Assembly: GCF_023051145.1 (NCBI RefSeq)
Contig: NZ_JALKFS010000005.1
Coordinates: 1,860,001-1,924,000 of the forward strand
DNA: 64,000 nt
Direction of reading: 5' to 3'
From: Williamsia sp. DF01-3
GTDB lineage: Bacteria; Actinomycetota; Actinomycetes; Mycobacteriales; Mycobacteriaceae
Shown: positions 56,799 to 62,890 of the stretch, piece after piece
Numbering within the stretch: position 1 is the first letter of the stretch
Layout of the letters: every line of letters starts with the position of its first letter
The notes under the pieces: generated by a model
Database searches by the model: none
Told to the model about the DNA's origin: nothing
What the model saw: the letters and a program-made list of their open reading frames with translations, nothing else
Translations under genes and position numbers: made by a program

Positions 56799-57635
56799 AT
56801 GAACAGCCCCTATGTGGTGATCGGCGCCACCGGCGCGCAAGGTGGCGCAGTGGTGACAGCGCTTCTCGCGAGAACTCTGCCCGTGCGGGCAGTGGTCCGG
56901 CGCCCGGAGTCGACCCGAGCCCGCCGGCTCGCAGATGCGGGTGCATCACTCGCTGTCGCCGACCTCGACGACCCGAAGAGCCTCGCCGCGGCATTCGCGG
57001 GAGCCGCCGGAGTCTTCGCTCTCACCACACCGTTCGAACGTGGACCGGATGAGGAAGTCTCGCAGGGGATGTCGATCATCGAAGCAGCGTCGACCGCCGG
57101 TGTTCCTCATCTGGTCTTCTCCTCGGTGGCCAGTGCCGACCGCCACACCGGGATCCCGCACTTCGAGAGCAAGGCAGTGGTCGAGGCGGCGTTGATGCGG
57201 TCGGGCGTTGCCAGCACGATCGTCGGCCCCACTTACTTCTACGACAACCTCCTGGCCGGAATGGACCAGGTGCGTGGGGGAGTACTCGAGCTCGCGATCG
57301 GTGAAGATACTCCATTACAACAGCTTTCACGTCGCGACCTCGGGGAGTTCGTCGCGACGGTCTTCGAGGACCCGGCGCGCCACGTGGGCCTGCGGATCGA
57401 CATCGCGTCCGACGCGCCGACACCCGCCCAGATGGCGGAAGCGTTGGGGCAGCGGCTCGGCCGCACCGTTCGGTTGCGCACCGTCGATGCTTCCGACATC
57501 GGTTCGGCGGACATGCGGGCGATGTTCGGGTACCTCACCGACACCGGATATGCGGCCGACATCCCCGCTCTGCACACCGCATACCCGGCAGTCGGGTGGC
57601 AATCGTTCACCGATTGGCTGGATGAAACGCTGTGA
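56799..57635 (+). CDS. NmrA-family NAD(P)-binding protein
   Basis: A 278-residue protein. ATG 56799 opens with PYVVIGATGAQGGAVVTALL, the GxxGxxG Rossmann motif. VVRRPESTRARRLADAG, FALTTPFERGPDEEV and FSSVASADRHTGIPHFESK fit the NmrA/HSCARG group, which sense or use NADP and may act as redox sensors or atypical reductases. Its TGA overlaps the MFS start (GTGA), so it heads the coupled operon of four genes after the 56715 hairpin. Confidence 0.88.
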   Translation: MNSPYVVIGATGAQGGAVVTALLARTLPVRAVVRRPESTRARRLADAGASLAVADLDDPKSLAAAFAGAAGVFALTTPFERGPDEEVSQGMSIIEAASTAGVPHLVFSSVASADRHTGIPHFESKAVVEAALMRSGVASTIVGPTYFYDNLLAGMDQVRGGVLELAIGEDTPLQQLSRRDLGEFVATVFEDPARHVGLRIDIASDAPTPAQMAEALGQRLGRTVRLRTVDASDIGSADMRAMFGYLTDTGYAADIPALHTAYPAVGWQSFTDWLDETL

Positions 57636-59341
57636 CCACCACTGTGGAGTCCGCGCCCCAGGTGTCCGCATGGGCGCCGTTGCGCAACAAGATCTATCGA
57701 TATCTGTTCATCGCCCAGCTCGTCTCGAACATCGGTCTCTGGATGCAGACCGTCGGGGCCCAGTGGTTCCTGGTGGAGCACGACAGCAGCGCCACCATCG
57801 TCGCACTCGTCCAGACTGCGAGTCTGCTGCCGACGCTGTTCTTGGCCTTGCCCGCCGGTGGACTCGCCGATCTCCTGGATCGCAGGCGCCTGCTGATCGC
57901 GGTCAGTACCTACACCGCGGTCGCTGCGGGGGTCACCACATTTCTGGCCTGGACCGATGTGCTGACGCCTGTGATGCTGTTGGCGATGACGTTCCTGCTC
58001 GGATGCGGCTCGGCACTGTCGGCTCCGGCGTGGCAGGCCATCCAGCCAGAACTCGTTCCACGCGAACAGATCCCAGCGGCTTCCTCGTTGGGCAGTGTCA
58101 CCGTGAACGCGGCCCGTGCGGTGGGTCCGGCGATCGGCGGGGTGTTGGTGGCCGCGGCCGGACCGGCCGCGGTGTTCGCGATCAATGCGCTGTCGTTCCT
58201 GGCGATCATCGGTGCGCTGGTGTGGTGGCGCCGACCCGCCGACGCCCCAGGTGTGGACCGTGAGCGGCTGGGACGTTCGCTGGTGACCGGTCTGCACTAC
58301 GTGCACGCAGCACCCATCGTTCGCCGGATCATGGTGCGATCGGCGGTCTTCGCCTTCCCGGCGTCTGCCCTCTGGGCTCTGCTGCCGCTGGCGTCGAGTG
58401 AGCACCTTCATTTCGGGGCATCGGGTTACGGCCTGGTACTTGGCATGCTCGGTGTCGGGGCGGTGGCCGGTGTCGCGATCTACCCGCGCCTGCGGAAGAA
58501 GTTGTTGCCCAACGCTTTGCTGGCTGCTTCGGCGATCGCGTACGGCGTGGGGGTGGTCGCGGTCGGCGTGTTGCCGGTGTGGGCGGTGCTGCCGCTGCTT
58601 CTGGTGGCCGGAGCTGCCTGGATCGCAACTCTCACCACGCTCAACGCAGCGATCCAGCTGTCTTTGTCGCACTGGGTGCGGGCACGCGGGATGTCGATCT
58701 ACTTGCTCGTGTTCATGGGATCGCAGGCCCTCGGATCGGTTGTGTGGGGTGTGGTGGCGTCCCACACGAGCTTCGTCACGGCGTTGCTCATCTCGGCGGC
58801 CCTGCTCGTCGCCGCTGCGGCCAGCGTCACGGTGGTACCGCTGCGGCCGGAGACGGGGACACTGCCGCGAGGTGTGTCCACCGCCTGGCCCACTCCGATG
58901 GTGGTGTTCGGACCCGAACCCGATGACGGCCCTGTTGTCGTCTCGGTGGCCTATCGCGTGCGGCCCGCGGAGCTGGACCAGTTCGATCAGGCGATGGCTG
59001 CCGTGGGGAAGGCGCGGCGGCGGACCGGCGGATACTCGTGGGGCCTGTACCGCCATGGCGCCGACTCAGACCTGCGGGTGGAACAGTTCACCGTTGCCTC
59101 CTGGAGTGATTACAAGCGGCAGACCACCGAGCGCTGGACGGAGTCGGACCACCAACTGATCACCGCGGCGTTGTCGCACACGGTGACCGGCGCAACCGAA
59201 GAAGAACGTCAACTGTTCGCGGTCGGGCCCCGGACCGGCCGCCATCCGGCGCGGGCCGGCGAGCACATCGACCACGTCGGCGAACTGAACGGTACCGCTG
59301 AACGGGAGGAGTTGCGGCACGGTTCTACAGTCAAGGGATGA
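57632..59341 (+). CDS. MFS_3-type exporter with C-terminal ferredoxin-like domain
   Basis: A 569-residue protein. The first ~410 residues are a 10-12 helix MFS_3 (EntS-like) exporter: LVSNIGLWMQTVGAQWFLVE, FLALPAGGLADLLDRRRLLI and PAWQAIQPELVPREQIPAA. The last ~150 residues (VVVSVAYRVRPAELDQFDQA, YSWGLYRHGADSDLRVEQF) look like a cytoplasmic antibiotic-biosynthesis-monooxygenase/Dabb-type domain, an architecture seen in this MFS subfamily. It overlaps both neighbours by 4 nt. It could export the product of the CofH-like/monooxygenase pair (inference). Confidence 0.9.
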   Translation: MTTTVESAPQVSAWAPLRNKIYRYLFIAQLVSNIGLWMQTVGAQWFLVEHDSSATIVALVQTASLLPTLFLALPAGGLADLLDRRRLLIAVSTYTAVAAGVTTFLAWTDVLTPVMLLAMTFLLGCGSALSAPAWQAIQPELVPREQIPAASSLGSVTVNAARAVGPAIGGVLVAAAGPAAVFAINALSFLAIIGALVWWRRPADAPGVDRERLGRSLVTGLHYVHAAPIVRRIMVRSAVFAFPASALWALLPLASSEHLHFGASGYGLVLGMLGVGAVAGVAIYPRLRKKLLPNALLAASAIAYGVGVVAVGVLPVWAVLPLLLVAGAAWIATLTTLNAAIQLSLSHWVRARGMSIYLLVFMGSQALGSVVWGVVASHTSFVTALLISAALLVAAAASVTVVPLRPETGTLPRGVSTAWPTPMVVFGPEPDDGPVVVSVAYRVRPAELDQFDQAMAAVGKARRRTGGYSWGLYRHGADSDLRVEQFTVASWSDYKRQTTERWTESDHQLITAALSHTVTGATEEERQLFAVGPRTGRHPARAGEHIDHVGELNGTAEREELRHGSTVKG

Positions 59342-60462
59342 AGTTGCGATCGTCATGGGCCGCCGACCACCACATGCCGCCGGCCGTGGTGCAACCGGTC
59401 CTGCGACGGTTGGCTCGCGATCCCGGTTCGATCGACGACCTGGAGTGGAGCTATCTCCTGCAGGCCGACGGTCCTGACCTGGACGAACTGTGTGCGTTGG
59501 CCGATGCCGCCCGGCGGGAGACCACCGGTGATGACCTCACCTTTGTCGCCAACCGCAACTTCGAGACGGCAGCCGTTCTGGCCGACGGTGGCGGTGTGAG
59601 CCTGGAAGACCTCGTCGCGGAGGCCTGGGAACTCGGCGCGACAGAGATCTGCCTGCAGGGTCCGGTTCCGGCGACCGAACACGCCACCGAATACCTGGAG
59701 TTGATCAAGCGCATCAAAGCGGTCGCGCCCGAGATCCACCTCCATGCCTACCGTGCAACAGAGGTGTTCGACGCCGCGACCCGGCTCGACGTCACCGCCG
59801 AGGAGTTCCTCCGGTCGGCCCGCGAGGCGGGCCTCGACACCGTGCCCGGCACTGCCGCGCAGGTACTCGACGACCACGTGCGCCGCGCCCTCTCGCCCGA
59901 CGGCCGCGGGCTGTCGATCGCCGCGTGGGTGGACACGATCATCACCGCCCACCAGACGGGTCTGAAATCGACCGCGACGATGCTCTACGGTCACGTCGAG
60001 GACCCGATTCACCAGGTTGCCCACCTGCGTCTGCTGGCCGATATCCAGCACCGCACGTCCGGCTTCACCGAACTCATCCTCATGCCGATGCTTCCAGAGA
60101 ACGCCCCACCCCACGTCCGGGATCAAGCGGTCCAGGGCCCCACGCTCCGCGAGACCAGGGCAGTGCACGCGGTGGCACGCCTGATGATGCTCGGCACCAT
60201 CGACCACGTACAGGCAGCGTGGACCAAACTCGACGCCGAAGCGCTGCGTGCCGTGCTCCGCGGTGGTGCCGACGATGTCGGCGGCGTCCTGATGGACGGA
60301 ACGCTCCGGCCCGACGCCGGGCCCGAGAGTGGCAGACAGCTCTCGCCCGACGATGTGACGGAGTTGGGCAGAGAACTCGGCCGGACGCCGCGTCAGCGCA
60401 CGACCCTCTACGAGGACCCACCCGCCGAGCGGGTCGAAGTGTTGCGACGGGTCTTCGCGTGA
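59338..60462 (+). CDS. CofH (FO synthase)-like protein lacking radical-SAM cysteines
   Basis: A 374-residue protein whose body reads like CofH, the second half of F420-pathway FO synthase: ANRN (71-74), GATEICLQG (about 100-108), IHLHAYRATEVFDAA, PGTAAQVLDDHVRRAL, TTATMLYGHVEDP-like text, GGVLMDG and the near C-terminal RTPRQRTTLYED. Yet where CofH has the CxxxCxxC cluster motif after NRN, this protein has FETAAVLADGGG and a gap of roughly 15 residues. Only two cysteines (52 and 105) exist. It therefore cannot bind the usual [4Fe-4S]-SAM cluster. It overlaps MFS and monooxygenase genes by 4 nt each. Confidence 0.88.
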   Translation: MKLRSSWAADHHMPPAVVQPVLRRLARDPGSIDDLEWSYLLQADGPDLDELCALADAARRETTGDDLTFVANRNFETAAVLADGGGVSLEDLVAEAWELGATEICLQGPVPATEHATEYLELIKRIKAVAPEIHLHAYRATEVFDAATRLDVTAEEFLRSAREAGLDTVPGTAAQVLDDHVRRALSPDGRGLSIAAWVDTIITAHQTGLKSTATMLYGHVEDPIHQVAHLRLLADIQHRTSGFTELILMPMLPENAPPHVRDQAVQGPTLRETRAVHAVARLMMLGTIDHVQAAWTKLDAEALRAVLRGGADDVGGVLMDGTLRPDAGPESGRQLSPDDVTELGRELGRTPRQRTTLYEDPPAERVEVLRRVFA

Positions 60463-61964
60463 CCTCACCGTCCTCATTGCCACACTGCGTCGACGTGGCG
60501 ATCGTCGGTGCCGGGTTCGCGGGACTCGGCCTGGGTATCCGGCTGGCCCGGGCCGACCGGGAGAGCTTTGTCATCCTCGAACGCGGCGATTCGGTGGGCG
60601 GCACGTGGCGGGACAACCACTACCCGGGCGTCGCATGCGACGTACCCGCACATGTCTACTCGTATTCGTTCCGGCCTCCCGGTGACTGGACCTCGCTGTT
60701 CGCGTCGGGGCCGGAGATCCACGAGTATTTGACCCGTGCGGTGGACGAGGAGGGTCTGACGCCGCACCTGCATCTGAACACCGATGTGGCACAGGCTCGA
60801 TGGCTTCCGGATCAGCTCTGCTGGCTCGTGGCGACCAACGCGGGCGAGATGCGGGCCCGCGTGCTCGTCGTGGCGGTCGGCCGGTTGGCCGATCCGCTCA
60901 TGCCCGAGGTAACCGGTTCGGACACATTCTTCGGCAAGGTTTTCCACACCGCCCAGTGGGATGACGACGCTCCGATCGACGGCGCACGCGTCGGCATCGT
61001 GGGCACGGGGGCATCGGCGGTACAACTCACGCCACACCTCGCTGAGCGTGCCGGGCAGCTCGTCGTCTTCTCCCGCAGCGCGCCCTATGTGGTGCCGCGA
61101 CGTAATCGGGAATACAGCGAACCCGAGCGTGTGCAACTGCAGGTGAAGGCCAACGCAGACCGCCTGAGGGAAGAGCTCTTCACCGAGGCCGACAAAGCAT
61201 TTGCGCAGCGTCGAGGGCTCCGGCCGGACATCGATGAGATCCGGGCCCGGGCGCTGGGGCATCTGACTGCCCAGATCGACGATCCGGATCTCCGCCGGGC
61301 TCTGACGCCGGACTATGAAATCGGTTGCAAGCGAATACTTCTCAGTGACGAGTTCTACCCGGCGCTGATGAGGCCGTCGGTGACGCTGGAACCCTCTGCG
61401 CTCGCGGCGTTCGACGGTGACTCGGTGGTCGCGGCCAGCGGGCGTTCCTACGATCTCGACGTTGTTGTCATGGCCACCGGATTCGAGGCTGCCAGGCCCG
61501 CGTTCGCCGAGAGGGTCGCGGGTGTGGGCGGGGAATTGCTCTCCGACCATTGGGGTGAGGGGATGGTGTCGTACGCGTCCACCGCCGTCAGTGGCTTCCC
61601 GAACATGTTCGTACTGGACGGCCCCAATGCCGCTCTCGGCCACAATTCCGCGATCTACATGATCGAGACGCAGATCGACTACGTCCTGGGTGCTCTTGAC
61701 CACCTATGGCGCAACAGTGGGCTAGCGCTCGAGGTGTCGGCGGATGCCGAACGCGACTACACCCGTGAGATCGACGAGCGTAGTGCGTCGACGGTATGGC
61801 TCAGTGGTTGCAGCAGTTGGTATCTCGACCCCCAGAGCGGCCGGTTGACCTTGCTGTGGCCTGGTACCGGTCGCTCGTTCCGGGAACGCAACGGTACCTT
61901 CGACCCGCAGCGCTACGAGAAGGTCAGCGCGGTTGGTGTGGGCCAGGAGTGCCGGGTTTCCTGA
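60459..61964 (+). CDS. Baeyer-Villiger-type flavin monooxygenase
   Basis: A 501-residue FAD/NADPH enzyme starting at GTG 60459, which overlaps the CofH-like stop (GTGA). FAD motif VDVAIVGAGFAGLGLGIRLA, GGTWRDNHYPGVACDVPAHV, the BVMO-type fingerprint FFGKVFHTAQWDDD and NADPH motif RVGIVGTGASAVQLTPHL are visible. The fingerprint matches BVMOs in FxGxxxHxxxWD. It inserts oxygen next to ketones or acts on N/S atoms. The convergent ECF41 sigma gene starts downstream. Confidence 0.92.
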   Translation: MTSPSSLPHCVDVAIVGAGFAGLGLGIRLARADRESFVILERGDSVGGTWRDNHYPGVACDVPAHVYSYSFRPPGDWTSLFASGPEIHEYLTRAVDEEGLTPHLHLNTDVAQARWLPDQLCWLVATNAGEMRARVLVVAVGRLADPLMPEVTGSDTFFGKVFHTAQWDDDAPIDGARVGIVGTGASAVQLTPHLAERAGQLVVFSRSAPYVVPRRNREYSEPERVQLQVKANADRLREELFTEADKAFAQRRGLRPDIDEIRARALGHLTAQIDDPDLRRALTPDYEIGCKRILLSDEFYPALMRPSVTLEPSALAAFDGDSVVAASGRSYDLDVVVMATGFEAARPAFAERVAGVGGELLSDHWGEGMVSYASTAVSGFPNMFVLDGPNAALGHNSAIYMIETQIDYVLGALDHLWRNSGLALEVSADAERDYTREIDERSASTVWLSGCSSWYLDPQSGRLTLLWPGTGRSFRERNGTFDPQRYEKVSAVGVGQECRVS

Positions 61965-61972
61965 CCCTCTGA

Positions 61973-62890
61973 TCACCGGTCAGATGAGCGCACGTCCGGT
62001 ACCGCCTTCAGTTTCGCGGGGTCGGCGATGTCGTAAATGGCCGCTACACGGCCGTCGCGGACCACAAAGCAGCTGGCGCGAGCCGGAGATGCGCGACGGT
62101 CACCGGCATCGTCCCATCCGGCGCTGTACGCGCCGAGTTCGCCGTTGATGAGCACCGGGATCTGCTCGGACAGGAACGACTCTCCGTACCGTCGGACCAG
62201 ACCCAGCAGGAAACGCGCGACGCCGTCGGCGCCGTGGATGGGCTTGACCGCTGTGGGGGTGGTGCGGTTCGCGTCGCCGACGATCACGGCGTCCGGATCC
62301 AGGGCAGCCACAACGGAATCGACGTTTTTCGAGGCCAGCGCAGCAACGAGGCGCTGAACCGCCTCTGCTTGCTCGGCTTCGGACACCGGCGCCGGCACTC
62401 CCGAGACGATTCTCCTGGCACGTGAGGCCATTTGGCGGGCCGAAGCCGCGTTCACACCCAGGAGGGCGCCGATCTCGGCGAACGGCACGCCGAAACCGTC
62501 ATGCATCACGAATGCGACGCGCATCGCGGGAGTCAGGGTCTCGAATACCACCATCGCGGCGTATCGGCTGTCTTCCGCGGCGACCACCGCCTGTAGTGGA
62601 TCTTGTGAGTCGCTGGACGGTAGCGCGGTGACCACGGGCTCGGGAAGCCATTGGCCCACATACTGTTCTCGTCGAACCGCTGCTGACCGGAGTCGGTCGA
62701 GGCAGATGCGGCCGACCACGGTGGTCAGCCAGGCGCCGAGGTCGTTGATCGAGTCGACATCGACATCGGCCAGACGCAGCCACGATTCCTGCACGGCGTC
62801 CTCGGCGTCCGTGACACTCCCGGTGATCCGATATCCCACCGCGAGCAGGCGAGAGCGTTGATCCTGGAATCGATCCGCGAGACTCGGCAT
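61973..62890 (-). CDS. ECF41-family sigma factor with SnoaL-like C-terminus
   Basis: A 305-residue sigma factor. Sigma2 reads AVGYRITGSVTDAEDAVQESW, the linker WLPEPVV is diagnostic of ECF41, sigma4 reads FVMHDGFGVPFAEIGALLG, and a C-terminal SnoaL-like domain follows (LVAALASKNVDSVVAALDPD, and VRDGRVAAIYDIADPAKL near the end, the site of the usual NPDKL motif). The C-terminal domain controls activity in place of an anti-sigma factor. ECF41 genes usually sit next to their target; here the neighbour is the monooxygenase. Confidence 0.9.
   Translation of the reverse strand: MPSLADRFQDQRSRLLAVGYRITGSVTDAEDAVQESWLRLADVDVDSINDLGAWLTTVVGRICLDRLRSAAVRREQYVGQWLPEPVVTALPSSDSQDPLQAVVAAEDSRYAAMVVFETLTPAMRVAFVMHDGFGVPFAEIGALLGVNAASARQMASRARRIVSGVPAPVSEAEQAEAVQRLVAALASKNVDSVVAALDPDAVIVGDANRTTPTAVKPIHGADGVARFLLGLVRRYGESFLSEQIPVLINGELGAYSAGWDDAGDRRASPARASCFVVRDGRVAAIYDIADPAKLKAVPDVRSSDR

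Follow-up and report, generated by a model that had tools for sequence, protein, structure and literature searches.

What becomes of a radical S-adenosylmethionine (SAM) enzyme when the cysteine motif of its [4Fe-4S] cluster is lost and the rest of its barrel is kept? The question is raised by a gene in a 64,000-nucleotide stretch of the 5.59-Mb genome of Williamsia sp. DF01-3 (contig NZ_JALKFS010000005.1, positions 1,860,001 to 1,924,000 of the forward strand; hereafter the window), whose product resembles CofH, the C-terminal half of FbiC. An earlier reading of the letters and open reading frames (the sequence-only reading) had proposed that this protein is kept for another job, such as ligand binding, or as a partner of the adjacent flavin monooxygenase (FMO). 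We refer to the group of cluster-less CofH-like proteins by a label of our own, CofH*. Our analysis suggests that CofH* and FMO form a cassette that very probably replaces CofH in FO/F420 synthesis, and that FMO is probably a required partner in this replacement.

A CofH-family protein without the cluster motif

The likeness to CofH described in the sequence-only reading runs along the whole length of the window protein. NRN (residues 72-74), GATEICLQG, PGTAAQVLDD and RTPRQRTTLY are all conserved, and the top models in an hmmscan search were CofGH (366.8 bits, cut-off 1018) and CofH TIGR03551 (317.5 bits, E 8e-95, cut-off 374.1). MqnC and MqnE followed at 180 and 165 bits, and three further CofH* proteins gave the same ranking, with CofH above MqnC/MqnE. 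CofH* thus falls within the CofH family, and an identity as MqnC or MqnE was rejected on these scores. The window protein and the three others (269-299 bits) missed the curated cut-off of TIGR03551; three canonical CofH proteins reached 412-536 bits. Pfam Radical_SAM and CofH_C also matched below their cut-offs, the Radical_SAM match beginning at residue 88.

Directly after NRN, residues 75-86 of the window protein read FETAAVLADGGG. CxxxCxxC, which is termed a hallmark of the radical-SAM superfamily in a passage of PMC5352715, was present in 0/31 CofH* rows of our alignment, compared to 29/29 canonical rows. The second and third cluster columns are gaps in all 31 CofH*, and none has a cysteine in the first, so that by this motif CofH* would not be a functional member of the superfamily. 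Cys52 and Cys105 are the sole cysteines of the window protein, as had been noted before. Cys105 is invariant in CofH* and canonical CofH alike, and is therefore no cluster remnant. An assembly error, the artefact that the sequence-only reading had considered, was rejected because the loss recurs in independent genomes, 31 in all.

An AlphaFold2 model of CofH* (pLDDT 83, pTM 0.86), built on a 26-row alignment of the window protein and named loci, points to a radical-SAM-type barrel. Its closest Foldseek match was MqnE (6xi9/6xig, E 1e-22, TM ~0.77), and other top PDB matches included HydE, BioB and ThiH.

To see which residues accompany the loss of the motif, we compared CofH* with 29 canonical rows (one gene occurring twice, as L030 and L067) and 11 Mqn rows, 10 of them classified. 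CofH* retains 26 of the columns common to CofH and Mqn and lacks 12. The lost ones comprise the cluster cysteines (two gaps, the first replaced), their neighbours, G109, P112, E175, K191, F246, T317 and E321. The GPVPA site of the window CofH* lies at what we take to be the 'GGE-like' SAM-binding motif, G-G-I-x-P in canonical CofH. On this comparison, the cluster and the probable SAM site are gone from CofH*, while we infer the assignment of single residues to SAM or substrate. Eight CofH-specific columns are kept (A101, C105, T172, A173, E245, K297, L318 and G332).

CofH* is accompanied by a flavin monooxygenase in all 31 genomes

A survey of cysteine-less CofH homologues and their neighbours, suggested as a check in the sequence-only reading, returned 31 of the sampled genomes: nine Williamsia, 21 other members of the family and one member of another family. 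All nine Williamsia genomes sampled have CofH*, and the protein is conserved across genera. In a first pass over 251 family genomes (E<=1e-75), 28 had CofH* (the nine Williamsia included; 25 of the 28 are in set A1), 187 had another match and 36 had none. Among these 36 were two more CofH* genomes, G206 and G035, reached via a search with FMO, and three with canonical FbiC (G011, G117 and G132). In the subset of the 187 that was read, the Cys motif is present; G048, G118 and G229 had two matches each. The non-overlap of CofH* and other matches (30 versus 187 of 251 genomes) was scored at 2.7e-21, a figure that assumes that all 187 are canonical and that species are independent, which they are not. 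Among 397 genomes sampled in the order, G481 was the one CofH* genome found in another family. In a phylum sample of 396 genomes, all matches other than G000 and G045 stayed at or below 387 bits, which is where canonical CofH scores. Both the order and the phylum sample were read by score, so a distant CofH* like that of G035 could escape. The eight loci read from the phylum sample (L145-L152) all have the Cys motif.

In 31/31 loci, the FMO gene follows CofH* immediately 3' on the same strand, and the distance from the CofH* stop to its aligned start ranges from -7 to +65 bases. Since the two genes always adjoin, the partnership supposed in the sequence-only reading is likely. FxGxxxHxxxW, the fingerprint of type I Baeyer-Villiger monooxygenases (BVMOs), was found in 30/31 FMO copies (G001 has Y for F) and GCKR in all 31, and the window FMO has the dinucleotide-binding glycine motifs GAGFAG and GTGAS. 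By fingerprint and glycine motifs, FMO is thus predicted to be a type I BVMO. Its nearest relatives in a phmmer search of the PDB were steroid and phenylacetone monooxygenases.

Among the best 31 FMO matches in the 251 family genomes, 30 adjoin CofH* and the remaining one is in G150. This paralogue (G150:C4 240229-241680, L126; 48% identity) lies amid genes that look dehydrogenase-like by eye, in a genome with ordinary FbiC. It is the nearest non-cassette relative in the FMO tree, on a long branch, and may point to the ancestral substrate. The branching order of the FMO tree resembles that of the CofH* tree when compared by eye.

Other F420 genes are retained without an intact CofH

We determined which other F420 genes occur in CofH* genomes. 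In a search with the CofGH model, the FbiC cut-off was passed by 0/28 CofH* genomes versus 8/8 controls. Each of the 28 had a CofG match and a CofH* match, and four of them, the muralis group, had a third match to a decayed CofH half. G206 and G035 had CofG and CofH* only. At E<=1e-20, 26 of the 30 family CofH* genomes gave no further CofH-family match and the remaining four gave only the decayed half, so the fused muralis-group protein that carries this half was rejected as a general source of CofH. CofH* was found in 0/12 FbiC genomes searched (the 8 controls and four more).

CofD was over cut-off in all 36 genomes (28 CofH* and 8 controls), as was CofE, which was also found in G481, G206 and G035 and hence in 31/31 CofH* genomes. 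CofC was found in 36/36 and over cut-off in 35, the exception being G014 (CofH* genomes: 28/28 found, 27 over). CofE was found in 0/21 genomes that lacked a first-pass CofH-like match at E<=1e-75; these were 21 of the 36 unmatched genomes, picked from genera g3 and g5, and G010 and G012 among them were also examined with the CofGH model.

CofH* therefore co-occurs with CofG, CofC, CofD and CofE and without another intact CofH. All four genes and the absence of CofH were established for 28 genomes, CofG and CofE for G206 and G035, and CofE with an adjacent CofG for G481. Retention of CofC, CofD and CofE indicates that organisms in which CofH* takes the place of CofH have kept F420 assembly, and because CofG is kept too and no intact CofH is present, CofH* most likely performs the CofH step. 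This speaks against the other job, and against mere ligand binding, that the sequence-only reading had put forward: CofH's own job, done by different chemistry, is more likely.

Probable displacement of CofH next to a resident CofG

Different states of FbiC and the cassette are seen at a single site in the chromosome, between flanking genes that the genomes share. Here G016 has a full FbiC, the window genome has CofG with the decayed CofH half, G002 has CofG alone, and G249 has the CofH*-FMO pair beside CofG. In G177, G206 and G035, CofG and CofH* are fused in frame with CofH* C-terminal, like CofH within FbiC. CofG, CofH* and FMO are consecutive in G481, where CofG and CofH* are in different frames; a 728-aa frame there covers the CofG stretch out of frame. 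The order CofH*-FMO-CofG was found in all nine g9 loci with wide flanks, as well as in G023 and G014.

In phylogenetic trees, CofH* forms one side of a branch with support 100/99, and the decayed CofH half sits on a long branch that joins the FbiC proteins of the family. The CofG tree contains 29 of the 31 CofH* genomes, G201 and G235 being left out. Here, the CofG proteins of CofH* genomes are scattered among those of ordinary FbiC, and supported branches force at least four label changes. The simplest reading is that CofH*-FMO is a mobile cassette that displaced CofH several times next to a resident CofG.

Pairwise dN/dS among four Williamsia genomes was 0.08-0.14 for CofH*, 0.03-0.09 for FMO, 0.04-0.08 for CofG and 0.17-0.36 for the decayed CofH half. 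These values point to purifying selection on CofH* and FMO and to weaker selection on the decayed half. The selection on the barrel claimed in the sequence-only reading is thus borne out, and CofH* was rejected as a lone pseudogene. The decayed half is represented by L002 (G000:C5 ~3992190-3994463, minus strand), an 816-aa protein in which it is fused to CofG. It has retained CxxxCxxC, lost a stretch of the barrel and differs at 43 of the 90 columns that are invariant in canonical CofH. It is perhaps just a structural tail of CofG under mild remaining constraint.

A possible oxygen-dependent route

We propose a route in three steps. Phenylacetone monooxygenase yields benzyl acetate, and 4-hydroxybenzyl esters can lose carboxylate to give a p-quinone methide. 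By analogy, FMO with FAD, NAD(P)H and O2 would oxidise a 4-hydroxybenzyl ketone or keto acid derived from tyrosine, our first guess being 4-hydroxyphenylpyruvate. The resulting 4-hydroxybenzyl ester would be labile and collapse to the p-quinone methide. The CofH* barrel, lacking cluster and SAM site, would then bind 5-amino-6-ribitylaminouracil and guide its C5 to attack the quinone methide, so that the usual product of CofH is formed. Finally, the resident radical-SAM CofG would close the ring to FO and CofC, CofD and CofE would complete F420, a step that gene retention supports.

Gene content, linkage, fusion, selection and, within the genomes searched, mutual exclusion are observed directly; beyond them, there is a good chance that the route depends on O2 and flavin. 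The exact chemistry, an ester giving a quinone methide that is trapped by the diaminouracil, is doubtful in its details. It also remains a tentative idea, possible but by no means favoured, that a radical-SAM enzyme has been rebuilt in its own barrel as a cluster-free enzyme, with a BVMO supplying p-quinone methide from a tyrosine metabolite so that the same C-C bond is made by two-electron, O2-dependent chemistry, in a cassette that displaced CofH several times independently.

Evidence against replacement and alternative explanations

Several points weigh against the replacement of CofH by the cassette. Ten CofH-specific columns are lost in CofH* as against the eight kept, and 31 of the 90 columns invariant in canonical CofH are changed; the product may therefore not be unchanged. 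Evidence for an unchanged substrate pocket is accordingly mixed. The decayed half, with its CxxxCxxC and non-neutral evolution, may have a residual role in the muralis group, and the CofG tree could alternatively stem from transfers of CofG. Support for a single FMO group relative to the G150 paralogue is just 87/74. The FbiC-model search covered 30 of the 31 CofH* genomes, those of the family, G481 being the remaining one. We know of no BVMO that acts on 4-hydroxyphenylpyruvate, and we found no report of F420 or FO in CofH* organisms in the open-access literature.

The lost columns fit another explanation, in which CofH*, FMO and CofG make a different deazaflavin, with another ring substituent or aromatic donor, and the cells use an F420 analogue. 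All 31 CofH* also have Arg139 where CofH has an invariant Ser, and CofC, CofD and CofE are retained even though the CofH step is altered. However, CofG of CofH* genomes intermixes with that of ordinary FbiC in the tree, and the F420 enzymes of relatives would have to tolerate the analogue. We consider this explanation unlikely.

It is similarly improbable that CofH* acts as a docking barrel while FMO N-oxygenates tyrosine and so brings about a cleavage between C-alpha and C-beta that mimics the aminyl-radical step of CofH. CofH chemistry does begin at the tyrosine amine, according to a part of PMC8498797, and FMO matches the N-hydroxylase family Lys_Orn_oxgnase (E 2e-7). This family is outscored by FMO-like and Pyr_redox_3, however, and the F and W of the BVMO fingerprint (30/31) and GCKR (31/31), with its K-R aligned to phenylacetone monooxygenase, argue against this reading.

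The absence of the cluster motif from all 31 might also mean that CofH* has no catalytic role, serving instead to bind FO or a substrate or as a regulator, and that an unrecognised enzyme supplies CofH activity. This is very unlikely given that 26/30 family genomes have no other CofH-family match at the above threshold, the other four having the decayed half only, that FbiC is over cut-off in 0/30, and that the CofG-CofH* fusions mirror FbiC. A decaying relic, with F420 lost and CofH* and CofG being eliminated, can practically be dismissed: it draws on the decayed half of the muralis group, but CofC and CofD persist in 28/28 and CofE in 31/31 CofH* genomes, dN/dS is 0.03-0.14 for CofH*, FMO and CofG, and CofH* is conserved across genera.

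Relation to known systems

Replacement of CofH by CofH* and FMO can be set against several known systems. Like CofH (TIGR03551) and the C-terminal half of FbiC (NF006687), CofH* is homologous over nearly its full length, with CofGH and CofH as its best NCBIfam models, and is found with CofG, CofC, CofD and CofE, fused to CofG in three genomes. Unlike them, it lacks CxxxCxxC and the cluster loop, has its SAM-site columns replaced, scores below cut-off and adjoins FMO in every locus. MqnE, the closest solved fold, and MqnC belong to the futalosine pathway; unlike CofH*, they are radical-SAM enzymes of another pathway, and their profiles score below CofH. FMO shares the fingerprint and the K-R with the type I BVMOs phenylacetone and steroid monooxygenase (1w4x, 4ap3), its nearest PDB relatives, but differs from them in being tied to CofH*. 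In ThiH/ThiO and HemN/HemF, an O2-dependent enzyme substitutes for a radical-SAM one. In those pairs the two enzymes are unrelated, whereas CofH* keeps the barrel without the cluster.

A 2021 review (PMC8498797) presents the making of FO as a universal mechanism of two SAM-radical domains, the enzymes as oxygen-sensitive and difficult to handle, and the CofH product as arising via a p-hydroxybenzyl radical; neither Gordonia, Williamsia nor monooxygenase turned up in its text. An excerpt of a Gordonia paper lists a deazaflavin-dependent oxidoreductase. We found no report of a Cys-less CofH or of a monooxygenase in FO synthesis in the open-access literature, which leaves most subscription journals outside. 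We rate CofH* with FMO as a new variant of FO biosynthesis. If true, a cluster-free, O2-using substitute for CofH would break the universal rule of two radical-SAM domains, a radical-SAM barrel would have been repurposed without its cluster, and aerobic F420 production could become easier. For annotation, a missing CofH or a sub-cut-off FbiC need not equal the absence of F420.

Features of the locus and minor observations

Table 1. Features at the CofH* locus, in window coordinates.
Feature	Position	Strand	Remarks
MFS_3 transporter gene	57632..59341	+	overlaps CofH* start (ATGA); probably not part of cassette
CofH* (CofH-family barrel without radical-SAM [4Fe-4S] motif)	59338..60462	+	374 aa, ATG start
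NRN and shortened Cys-less loop, CofH* residues 72-86	59551..59595	+	NRN...CxxxCxxC in CofH
GPVPA, CofH* residues 108-112	59659..59673	+	replaces invariant G-G-I-x-P of canonical CofH
FMO, Baeyer-Villiger-type flavin monooxygenase	60459..61964	+	501 aa; GTG start overlaps CofH* stop (GTGA)
FxGxxxHxxxW, FMO residues 157-167	60927..60959	+	type I BVMO fingerprint
GCKR, FMO residues 289-292	61323..61334	+	aligned to T-K-R of phenylacetone monooxygenase
SigJ-like ECF (extracytoplasmic function) sigma factor gene	61973-62890	-	C-terminal SnoaL-like domain; downstream of FMO, facing it

The MFS_3 gene (Table 1) adjoins CofH* in the four muralis-group genomes, and the 17-kb stretches from G001, G002, G005 and G008, four further Williamsia, yielded no match at E<=1e-20. 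It was therefore dropped as a third component of the cassette. The last 56 residues of its product extend past the Pfam MFS_3 match. In G001, G002 and G008, blastp relatives of the SigJ-like gene likewise lie close to the cassette.

Three named loci are 97-98% identical, two of them titled Williamsia muralis and the third Kitasatospora arboriphila. This third record, L033 (NZ_JNYV01000003.1, strain NRRL B-24581), carries a Williamsia locus at ~97% protein identity and contains the G006 locus, so it is probably mislabelled or contaminated.

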